From assembly GCF_000374145.1 (NCBI RefSeq), contig NZ_KB893654.1, forward strand, positions 1-64,000: a stretch of DNA of 64,000 bases. Direction: 5' to 3'. This DNA comes from Neomegalonema perideroedes DSM 15528. Its GTDB lineage: Bacteria; Pseudomonadota; Alphaproteobacteria; Rhodobacterales; Rhodobacteraceae. Shown here one piece after another: positions 26,170 through 30,717 of this stretch (position 1 is its first letter; the number at the start of each line of letters is the position of its first letter). The position numbers and the translations under genes are program-made. The notes beneath the pieces are model-generated. The model saw only the letters and a program-made list of their open reading frames with translations. It ran no database searches and was not told the origin of the DNA.

Positions 26170-26733
26170 ATGACGATTTCCTCGAATTTCGCCAAATCCT
26201 TCGGCTCCTCCCTCTTCGGCGCGAAATCGGCGGCCTTCTGCCCGCCGACCACGCCCACGAAGCCGAGCAAGCCCTCCAAGCCGACGACGCCGACCGCCCC
26301 CTATTGCCCGCCGGTCTCGACCAAGCCGACCAGCCCCTCCAAGCCGGGCGTGAACATCGGCGTCGACATCAACATCGGCGGCGGCTACGGCGGCGGTTAT
26401 GGCGGCGGCTTCGGCGGCTCCTGGGGCGGGATCGGCGGCGGCTGGGGTTCGAACCAGACCTCGAACTACGGCTTCCAGGTCGGCGACGGGAAGAACTTCC
26501 TCTCGGGCCAGGGCCAGGGCGCCTATGAGTTCGGCTTCGAGAACGGCAAGGGCTCGATCATGGGCGCGGGCAACGGCTCGGGCTTCCAAGTCGGGATCAG
26601 CGGCAAGGGCGTGAGCGGCTACGCCACCGGCACCGGCGCCTTCAACAGCTTCCAGGCGGGCGTCAACGGCGTTCTCGGCATGGGCTCCAGCGCGCTGTCC
26701 TCCTCCAAGAACCTCGCCTCGCTCTACTGCTGA
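26170..26733 (+). CDS. Glycine-rich protein 3, C-terminal Cys, function unknown
   Basis: 187 aa. The N-terminus MTISSNFAKSFGSSLFGAKS is not a signal peptide. A Pro/Lys/Thr/Ser linker with PSKPSKPTTP units and two cysteines (CPP twice) spans about 23-58. Next comes GVNIGVDINIGGGYGG, close to GVNIGINIGVGG of protein 1, then a Gly/Tyr/Trp region. From about 95 the sequence is less repetitive (YGFQVGDGKNFLSGQGQG, FQVGISGKGVSGYATGTG) and looks like a short beta-rich domain. It ends SKNLASLYC. GGGGA lies 9 nt before the ATG, in an AT-rich leader with TTGACA at 26090-26095 but no clear -10. No family recognised. Confidence 0.72.
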   Translation: MTISSNFAKSFGSSLFGAKSAAFCPPTTPTKPSKPSKPTTPTAPYCPPVSTKPTSPSKPGVNIGVDINIGGGYGGGYGGGFGGSWGGIGGGWGSNQTSNYGFQVGDGKNFLSGQGQGAYEFGFENGKGSIMGAGNGSGFQVGISGKGVSGYATGTGAFNSFQAGVNGVLGMGSSALSSSKNLASLYC

Positions 26734-28470: not shown

Positions 28471-28811
28471 GGGAGGACTCCTTATGACGGCCGGGGGCGG
28501 ACGCTGCGACGAGGCGGAGCGTCCGCAGGATGCGCGGGCGGCGCGATGAAGGCCGCCCGAGTCTCTGAGCATGGGTTTGAACATCCTGAAGGAGAGGGCG
28601 CAAGGGGCTTCAGCGCCGGGCTGGCGCGCGGGTGGCGCGCGGGCGGGCGCGCGGAGAAGGCCGGGAGGACGCGAAAACGTGAGCCCGCAGGCGGACCCCG
28701 CCCCTCCGAAGGTCTTTTCAGAGCGGGGCGGAACGCCTATCTTCTCAGCAAAGGCGCGCTTGGGCGCGTCCGACGGAGCCGCAAGGCTTCAGGGAATTCA
28801 GGGAGCGACTC
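28471..28811. other. Divergent intergenic region sodB / small membrane protein
   Basis: 341 bp between divergent starts. It is GC-rich, with GCGCGCGG runs at about 28620-28660. I find no gene, RNA or clear promoter boxes. The RBS for the right-hand gene (AGGGAG) sits at its end. Confidence 0.4.
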
Positions 28812-29114
28812 ATGCCCAACCGGGTTTTCGTCTTCTCGACGCCGCGCGCGCCGCGCGGGATTCTGGCGACCGTGGGGGCTTTGGCTCTGGGCGCGGTTCT
28901 GATCGCGACGGCGGTGGTCGCTTCGGCGGCTTTGCTGGTGATCGGCGGCGGCGCGGCTCTGGCGCTGGGCCTTTGGGCGAAATTCAAGGGCGGCGCGCAG
29001 ACCTCCGAGACTCGCGAGGAGGCTGGTCCCTTCGCGCGCCCCGACGGCGTGATCGAGGGCGTGCGCTACGCCGAGGTCCGCGTCGAGGACCGCCGCCGTC
29101 AGCCGCCGCGCTGA
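28812..29114 (+). CDS. Small membrane protein, function unknown
   Basis: 100 aa. A basic N-terminus (TPRAPRG) precedes a long Ala/Leu/Val-rich hydrophobic stretch (about 17-56) able to span the membrane once or as a hairpin, followed by a polar tail ending EDRRRQPPR. The start follows AGGGAG. It ends 7 nt before the degenerate CDP-alcohol phosphotransferase gene, so the two are probably translated from one mRNA. I recognise no family. Confidence 0.7.
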   Translation: MPNRVFVFSTPRAPRGILATVGALALGAVLIATAVVASAALLVIGGGAALALGLWAKFKGGAQTSETREEAGPFARPDGVIEGVRYAEVRVEDRRRQPPR

Positions 29115-29121
29115 GGTCGGC

Positions 29122-29724
29122 GTGCTTGAGCAGCGTCTGAGGACGCTCGTCGATCCTTTCATGGCCCGCATGGGCCGTCGCGCCGCTTTGCTCGGCGCGC
29201 GGGCGGATTCGGTCACTTGGGCCGGATTCGGCTGCATGGTCGCGGCGGCGGCGCTGATCGCGGCCGGCTGGTCTTGGCTGGCGCTGATTCCCCTGCTCGC
29301 CGCCGGGTTCCTCGGCGGTTTGGACGGCGCCGTGGCGCGCGCCACCATCGGCACAGACCGGGGCGCCTTCCTCAATGATTCTCTGAACGCGGCCGGGCCC
29401 GCTCTGGCGATCCTCGGCTTCGGGATTCAGGTGCCCGCGGCCCATGGCGTGGCGGCGGCGGCGCTTTTGGCCGCTTGGGGGATCTGGTCGGCGACGACGC
29501 TCGCCTATGACCTCCACGCCGCGCGCCGCGCCGCCGACCGCGCCGGATTCCGCGGCGAGGCCGAGCCTTGGCCGACGCGGCGCCTCGAAAGATGGGCCGC
29601 CTTCGCGGCTTTGGGGCTGCTCTGCCTTCTGCCGGGCGTTTTCCCTTGGCTGGCGGGCCTGCTCGTCTTCATTGCGCTCGCGGCGGTGGTCGCGCGGTTC
29701 AACGAGGGGCTGGAGAGGCTCTGA
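29122..29724 (+). CDS. CDP-alcohol phosphotransferase homologue lacking catalytic Asp residues
   Basis: 200 aa, about six membrane helices, GTG start 6 nt after GAGG. The fold matches CDP-alcohol phosphatidyltransferases, whose signature is DxxDGxxAR followed by GxxxDxxxD. Here it reads GGLDGAVAR (65-73) and GAFLNDSLN (81-89). Only Asp68 remains; the other three positions are Gly65, Asn85 and Asn89. Those aspartates bind the two metal ions and activate the alcohol in the family, so normal catalysis looks lost. The rest, including the AR pair and helix pattern, is well kept. The role is unknown; it could be a non-catalytic paralogue, or use altered chemistry. Confidence 0.85.
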   Translation: MLEQRLRTLVDPFMARMGRRAALLGARADSVTWAGFGCMVAAAALIAAGWSWLALIPLLAAGFLGGLDGAVARATIGTDRGAFLNDSLNAAGPALAILGFGIQVPAAHGVAAAALLAAWGIWSATTLAYDLHAARRAADRAGFRGEAEPWPTRRLERWAAFAALGLLCLLPGVFPWLAGLLVFIALAAVVARFNEGLERL

Positions 29725-29769
29725 GCAGAGAGTCTCTTGCGCGGCGGGCCGCGCCGCGTTAGCCCCTGA

Positions 29770-29867
29770 AGCGCTTTTCAGCGAAGCCGCTCAGGCTTCG
29801 CGTCGTGAAAGCGCGGCCAACGAAAATTAGAGCATTTGAACGGCCCGGTTTGTCCGGAAACCGCTCC
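29770..29867. repeat. Dispersed intergenic repeat, second copy
   Basis: The first 46 bases (29770-29815) match the right arm region of the element at 18533-18720 read in reverse at about 40 of 46 positions. They fold into a nested hairpin: GCGCTTTTCA with TGAAAGCGC outside, GCGAAGCC with GGCTTCGC inside. The rest runs to CCGCTCC at about 29867. It lies directly upstream of dapB and may affect its leader. Confidence 0.65.
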
Positions 29868-29895
29868 AGCCCTCGCGCAGAGGAGAGCCCGCATC

Positions 29896-30717
29896 ATGTC
29901 TTCGCCGATCCGCATCGCCGTTCTGGGGGCCTCGGGCCGCATGGGGCGGGTTCTGGCCGCTCAGGTTCTGGCGACCGAGGGCGCCGAGCTCTCCGGCCTC
30001 GCCGAACGCCCCGGCCATCCCTGGATCGGGCAGGACGGCGGCGAGGTTCTGGGCTTTGGGCGCAAGCTCGGAATTTTAGTGACCGACGATCCCTTGCCGA
30101 TCTTCGCGAGCAGCCACGCCGTCCTCGACTTCACCGCCCCCGCCGCCACTCTGGAGCACGCCGACCTCGCGGCTCAGGCGCGGCTGACCCATGTGATCGG
30201 CACCACCGGATTCGCCCCGGAGCAGCTGCCGCGCCTTGAGGCGGCGGCGCGTCACGCCGTGCTGATTCGGGCGGGCAACATGTCGCTCGGCGTGAATCTG
30301 CTGACGCTCCTGACCAAGCGCGTGGCTCAGGCGCTCGACGCGGATTTCGACATTGAGATCCTCGAAACCCATCATAATAAAAAGGTCGACGCCCCTTCCG
30401 GCACCGCCCTGATGCTCGGCGAGGCGGCGGCGGCGGGCCGCGGCGTCAAGCTTTCCGAGGTCTCGGACCGCGGCCGCGACGGCGATACGGGCGCGCGTCG
30501 GCGGGGCGACATCGGTTTCGCCAGCCTGCGCGCGGGCGACGTGGTGGGCGAGCATGAGGTGATCTTCGCCGCCCCCGGCGAGCGGATCGTTCTGAAGCAT
30601 GTCGCCACCGACCGCAGCCTCTTCGCGCGGGGCGCCGTGAAGGCCGCCTTCTGGGGCCAGACGCAAAAGCCCGGCGAATACGACATGCTCGACGTGCTGG
30701 GCCTCAAGAACGGCTGA
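29896..30717 (+). CDS. dapB: 4-hydroxy-tetrahydrodipicolinate reductase
   Basis: 273 aa. DapB reduces 4-hydroxy-tetrahydrodipicolinate with NAD(P)H on the way to diaminopimelate and lysine, feeding murein synthesis. The Rossmann motif [14 protein letters not shown] (about 7-20), GTTGF (about 101-105), the catalytic region [16 protein letters not shown] (about 156-171) and GEHEVIFA are intact. The ATG at 29896 follows AGGAG; the in-frame ATG at 29836 lies inside the repeat. It converges with ppdK, with two bases between stops. Confidence 0.97.

Follow-up and report, generated by a model that had tools for sequence, protein, structure and literature searches.

Many phospholipids owe their head groups to the CDP-alcohol phosphotransferases (CDP-APs). 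The eight signature residues of the family, D1xxD2G1xxAR...G2xxxD3xxxD4, are called absolutely conserved across CDP-APs in the portion of PMC4634129 drawn on here; of the four aspartates, D1 to D3 bind metal, with D4 presumed to act as the base (PMC4634129 and PMC6506517, each in part). Experiments on two of these enzymes, described in the same portions of the two papers, bear directly on the present case. In MtPIPS, the D93N change, which affects D4, nearly abolished activity and left CDP-diacylglycerol-dependent inositol-phosphate binding comparable to that of the wild type; in the same protein D31 and T34 both touch the pyrimidine amine and R195 binds inositol phosphate (PMC4634129). In MtPgsA1, activity fell when a bulkier residue stood at A90, the presumed reason being interference with the inositol ring next to D4 (PMC6506517).

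The protein considered here, 200 amino acids (aa) long, has by prediction the six-transmembrane (TM) fold of RsPIPS (5d92), MtPgsA1 (6h59) and archaeal AF2299/DIPPS (Z 16.4 to 19.3), but unlike the PIP synthases and AF2299/DIPPS it appears from its sequence to lack the two-metal ligand set and the catalytic base. Its relatives include YnjF of E. coli (b1758, NC_000913), annotated as a CDP-alcohol phosphatidyltransferase domain-containing protein; to our knowledge YnjF has no known function, the YnjF-like proteins are uncharacterised, and no member of the CDP-AP fold is known to work without the aspartates. A search of the open PMC literature returned nothing on ynjF, nor on pseudoenzymes among the CDP-alcohol phosphotransferases or phospholipid synthases.

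The source organism, Meganema (Neomegalonema) perideroedes, is a filamentous bacterium from sewage sludge. Neomegalonema is placed in the Rhodobacterales by NCBI taxonomy; the available part of the 2015 genome paper put Meganema in the Rhizobiales and gives 22 scaffolds for the genome (PMC4511698), and the assembly used here has 3,409,949 bases in 17 contigs. The window, by which we mean the whole 64,000-nucleotide stretch that was analysed, carries the gene on its + strand at 29122-29724, with GTG as start codon. The sole other genome of the genus available, the MAG Neomegalonema sp. STC_130, stands for a second species, and the two together are called the pair below. Its protein is 88% identical to the 200-aa protein and has the same glycine and two asparagines (G/N/N) in place of D1, D3 and D4. 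A wrong start or frame can be rejected, the GTG at 29122 being the earliest start possible in the frame and the N terminus lining up with those of the homologues; a chance open reading frame is made unlikely by the 88% protein identity and by the distribution of nucleotide differences over codon positions 1, 2 and 3 (20/15/62). Sequencing error is made unlikely by the occurrence of the same letters in the independent MAG, with the Illumina coverage of 108.2x also counted against it (PMC4511698, in part), and a mutation recent to a single strain is rejected on the presence of G/N/N in both available genomes of the genus.

The degenerate signature stretch, residues 65-89 (29314-29388, + strand), reads G65xxD68G69xxA72R73...G81xxxN85xxxN89 and is identical in the two species. 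Set against the CDP-AP standard D-D-G-A-R-G-D-D, five of the eight residues are kept (D68, G69, A72, R73 and G81), with D1 replaced by Gly and D3 and D4 by Asn; the open reading frame and the residues Gly65, Asp68, Asn85 and Asn89 named in the initial annotation were exact on re-reading. The homologue survey covered 214 loci; after removal of 15 that repeated a core sequence already present, 199 distinct proteins were left, counting E. coli YnjF and the pair. All four aspartates are present in every one of the other 197, YnjF among them: the motif is GDGARGNN in both genus members, DDGARGDD in 196 of the 197 others and DDGAQGDD in one, and an earlier set of 139 distinct proteins had DDGARGDD in all 137 besides the pair. 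At family level 185 of 394 genomes have YnjF-like matches and at class level 82 of 385, in sets that overlap; the survey read a subset of the matching genomes. Since homologues were recruited through their resemblance to the 200-aa protein or to the pair, a copy much further degenerated may have escaped it. G/N/N, whose conservation the initial annotation had proposed to check, is thus shared with the nearest relative and found in none of the 197 others; the converse expectation, that close relatives would all be intact, fails for that nearest relative and holds for all sequences surveyed outside the genus. The single Gln for Arg belongs to a YnjF-like protein (L232, G348:C40:5450-6300) and is the sole signature departure outside the pair; that genome is a draft, so the Gln may be an error.

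The proposal that the protein is a CDP-AP homologue stands, though its Pfam support is weak, at 19 bits for PF01066 with a cut-off of 22 (21.1 bits in the genome search), as against 34.1, 41.2 and 55.4 bits for three intact homologues, and the best NCBIfam match is to archaetidylinositol phosphate synthase, at 39.8 bits with a model cut-off of 180. Homology to the YnjF-like group is found over most of the length. E. coli YnjF (206 vs. 200 aa) is 31% identical over 178 aa without gaps, and a profile of alphaproteobacterial YnjF-like proteins aligns over 196 columns at 37% identity, with an hhalign probability of 99.9%. The intact homologue L006 is itself 43% identical to YnjF over 201 gapless aa, which justifies calling the parent group YnjF-like. 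Identity to the 200-aa protein outside the genus runs from 27 to 43% among the matches listed. A PDB sequence search with a profile of intact homologues matched CDP-APs, and the same search with the two-row profile of the pair gave nothing but a chance-level pilin match; a search of viral_contigs found no relative.

The replacement of three aspartates, correctly described at the outset, understated the change, as other family-invariant residues are lost too. In the 137 intact homologues 36 columns are at least 95% conserved, and the pair keeps 19 of these and loses 17. Those lost besides D1, D3 and D4 include R62, I86, F90, Y93, K146, G153, G157, E159 and T160, and those kept include G66, D68, G69, A72, R73, D79, G81, E156 and R192; two of the 19 kept positions vary between the two species (T32S and G35A). 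The loss extends to the loop between TM4 and TM5 and the start of TM5, residues 146-160 (29557-29601, + strand), where the family's K146, G153 and E156-G157-x-E159-T160 have become E, R and E-R-x-A/S-A/V in the pair, only E156 being kept. In the 197 others these residues form a YnjF-like signature of their own, with K146 in 196, G153 in 195, E156 in 196, and G157, E159 and T160 in all 197. Compared with E. coli YnjF and its alphaproteobacterial relatives, then, the protein is without three of the four aspartates, K146, G153 and all of EGxET except E156.

The six-helix CDP-AP fold is nonetheless predicted to persist. The AlphaFold2 model of the 200-aa protein has a pLDDT of 89.8 and a pTM of 0.84, with residues 143-151 below pLDDT 50; of the 71 rows in its alignment 69 are intact homologues and two the pair, and the model therefore draws on the intact sequences. 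The model of L006 gives 91.4 and 0.86. The best solved match of the model is RsPIPS 5d92 (Z 19.3, rmsd 1.9 over 178 residues), followed by MkPIPS (18.0), AF2299 (17.3), DIPPS (17.1) and MtPgsA1 (17.0), and ranks 1 to 19 are all CDP-APs; in Foldseek the E-values are weak, 1.4e-3 at best, with CDP-APs in all of the top 22 rows. In the model TM5 begins at residue 150, vs. residue 158 in L006, in line with the lost GGxxEGxET loop. The initial description of an otherwise well-kept fold therefore suits the predicted fold but overstates the preservation of the active site, in which 17 of the 36 near-invariant positions are altered.

A persisting fold with five of eight signature residues might be taken to mean that the protein has remained an active CDP-AP in spite of G/N/N. 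We regard this as very improbable: every aspartate is kept in 197 of 197 other homologues, and in MtPIPS the change of D4 to Asn by itself nearly abolishes activity (PMC4634129, in part), so that canonical CDP-AP catalysis has very probably been lost. The likeness to the D93N mutant, which binds substrate and is nearly without catalysis (PMC4634129, in part), extends to the D4 to Asn change; the mutant, however, carries one engineered change, and the natural protein has also lost D1, D3 and most of the YnjF-like TM5-loop motif. By alignment, D31, T34 and R195 of MtPIPS correspond to D29, T/S32 and R192 of the 200-aa protein. Position 32 is T or S in 196 of the 197 other homologues, and position 29 is D in 118, N in 73 and another residue in 6; since the family does not strictly conserve position 29, the retention of D29 is weak evidence of nucleotide binding.

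Loss of this kind could also mean that the gene is slowly decaying, the ancestral enzyme having become dispensable and the gene, weakly constrained, heading to loss. The many invariant residues lost fit such a course, as does the very long stem branch that leads to the pair: in the tree of 139 rows, a quick build with SH-aLRT as its only support, the stem has 6.55 plus 1.11 changes per column, with a median end branch of 0.41. (Among intact rows the longest end branch, 4.1, is that of a YnjF-like protein with its aspartates in place, L027:1483-2082; the next is 2.05.) Across 29 genomes the median distance of the 200-aa protein to other genera is 2.9 times that among them under LG+G4 and 5.3 times under a mixture model, and DapB, used as a rate control in the same genomes, gives a ratio of 1.6 to 1.8; the corresponding median identities are 33% vs. 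54% for the 200-aa protein and 67% vs. 73% for DapB.

Comparison of the two species gives a different picture of more recent evolution. By the Nei-Gojobori method (custom script), the gene has dN 0.083, dS 0.515 and dN/dS 0.162 (bootstrap 0.096-0.264), from 97 nucleotide differences; on the evidence of these sequences it is under purifying selection, a statement that rests on a single pairwise comparison since two sequences of the genus are available. Within the gene the ratio is 0.053 for the stretch 61-92 and 0.67 for the last 25 codons. Among the neighbours it is 0.063 for RarD, 0.070 for DapB, 0.145 for PPDK and 0.231 for a small upstream open reading frame; SodB gives 0.135 from its likely true start and 0.304 with a doubtful mechanical N-terminal extension. 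At 0.16, against 0.063 to 0.145 in the four larger neighbours, the gene is thus constrained, slightly less than those. Values above those of RarD, DapB, PPDK and the trimmed SodB, and the 0.67 near the C terminus, could be read as relaxation on the way to loss, but a ratio of 0.16 lies well below 1, and PPDK and SodB both fall inside the bootstrap range. The 200 codons are, moreover, free of indels and stops, while the adjacent spacer before dapB varies from 171 to 95 nt between the species, and both the gene and the small open reading frame before it have been kept in both. The excess of distance over DapB, taken together with the low dN/dS, points to a burst of change in the stem lineage of the genus and to constraint thereafter. 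We accordingly hold slow decay to be unlikely, and the initial suggestion, that catalysis was lost under selection or replaced by new chemistry and that the gene is not decaying, is supported by the shared G/N/N, the dN/dS and the intact reading frame, loss of activity being what the pattern of residues points to.

The gene order RarD-SodB-small ORF-200-aa gene-DapB-PPDK is the same in both Neomegalonema species, with dapB as the conserved downstream neighbour (29896-30717, + strand). The small membrane protein reported 7 nt upstream is indeed there, a + strand ORF of 100 aa at 28812-29114 with a long hydrophobic stretch at about residues 13-58. It is 87% identical in the second species, and a search of 100 family genomes, a draw that did not include that species, matched it only in its own genome; it is probably an operon partner of the 200-aa gene. 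A stretch of 74 nt (29043-29116), which takes in the last part of the small ORF with its stop codon, has identical DNA in the two species, though the remainder of this ORF and the following gene carry numerous silent differences; the cause is possibly chance, translational coupling or an embedded signal. Scans of 28500-30000 gave no promoter and one terminator-like site, under the shuffled mean of 2.0. Further upstream in the window, the ORF at 26170-26733 encodes 187 aa with a proline/threonine-rich start and a glycine-rich middle.

The neighbourhood also differs from that of many intact copies. ABC-transporter genes of the ynjB/ynjC type are frequent, if not universal, beside YnjF-like genes and absent beside the pair: ynjB lies beside 63 of 137 intact copies in the available flank (often only 1.5 kb), and beside 37 of 60 where flanks reach up to 3 kb. 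A profile search for YnjB-type proteins (NF008633) had no match in either Neomegalonema genome; among five other genomes used as controls, three picked for a ynjB neighbour and two not, four scored above the cut-off. A ynjC-type permease fragment had no match in either genome, in a search run without a positive control. This apparent want of the partner of many intact copies would suit slow decay. In the tree, the two rows closest to the pair, L006 and L079, also have flanks without ynjB. The close intact paralogue that the initial annotation had proposed to look for did not emerge: neither Neomegalonema genome yielded a second YnjF-like copy, and the other PF01066 matches in M. perideroedes are a PgsA-like protein (122 bits) and a phosphatidylcholine-synthase-like one (NF045884, 227.9 bits, cut-off 350). 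Both have intact aspartate motifs by reading and counterparts in the second species. For type-II phosphatidylserine synthase (TIGR00473) neither genome has a match above cut-off.

A cavity that has lost its usual ligands might instead have been rebuilt as a different active site, with D68 and a new aspartate, D86, as its acids and another reaction as its outcome, for example a hydrolysis or transfer that needs one metal or none and acts on a lipid, cytidine-linked or other. D86 (codon 29377-29379, + strand) sits one residue from the lost D3, and an acid at this position is found in the pair only: the 197 others have I (189), V (4), L (2), A (1) or S (1), and never D. Counting along the sequence alignment rather than by superposition, D86 corresponds to A90 of MtPgsA1, the activity-sensitive site beside D4 (PMC6506517, in part), and D68, R73 and R192 are kept as well. 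Against a new reaction stand the loss of D1, D3, D4, K146 and the E159-T160 pair together, the want of any precedent known to us for a member of this fold working without the aspartates, and an operon context that points to no substrate; we think it improbable.

The explanation that we consider probable, if well short of assured, is that the 200-aa protein is a genus-specific membrane pseudoenzyme derived from a YnjF-like CDP-AP and kept for a binding, regulatory or scaffold role. It combines clear homology to an enzyme with the absence of key catalytic residues and with purifying selection (between two sequences), the features by which pseudoenzymes are recognised. On the Neomegalonema stem, a YnjF-like CDP-AP diverged strongly, losing D1, D3, D4 and most of the TM5-loop residues. 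To go by the experiments on other family members, the usual two-metal site could not form without D1 and D3 and the catalytic base would be gone without D4, so that phospho-alcohol transfer in the manner of the family would not take place. Least certain is what remains: because D29, T/S32, the D68-G69-A72-R73-G81 framework and R192 are still present, binding of a cytidine nucleotide or CDP-lipid may persist, or the protein may dimerise, and in this way it may act as a membrane regulator or scaffold, perhaps in partnership with the product of the small ORF 7 nt upstream. Given the retained pyrimidine-side residues and the selection, we favour a binding or regulatory role over a bare relic. A more specific version can be put forward only tentatively and seems to us rather doubtful, namely that the pseudoenzyme binds CDP-lipid or cytidine nucleotide so as to sense or control phospholipid synthesis, or else that D68 and D86 form a new active site; such control could run through the PgsA-like or phosphatidylcholine-synthase-like protein as partner, or through the small membrane protein.

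The scope of the finding is small, one genus and two genomes, and concerns a candidate pseudoenzyme recognised from sequence. The protein is unusual all the same in a family whose signature has been called absolutely conserved (PMC4634129, in part). A natural relative without three of the aspartates, kept by selection and with the cytosine-contact positions retained, would test what the CDP-AP scaffold can do without catalysis, and the common YnjF-like group would gain with it a natural case of lost catalysis.
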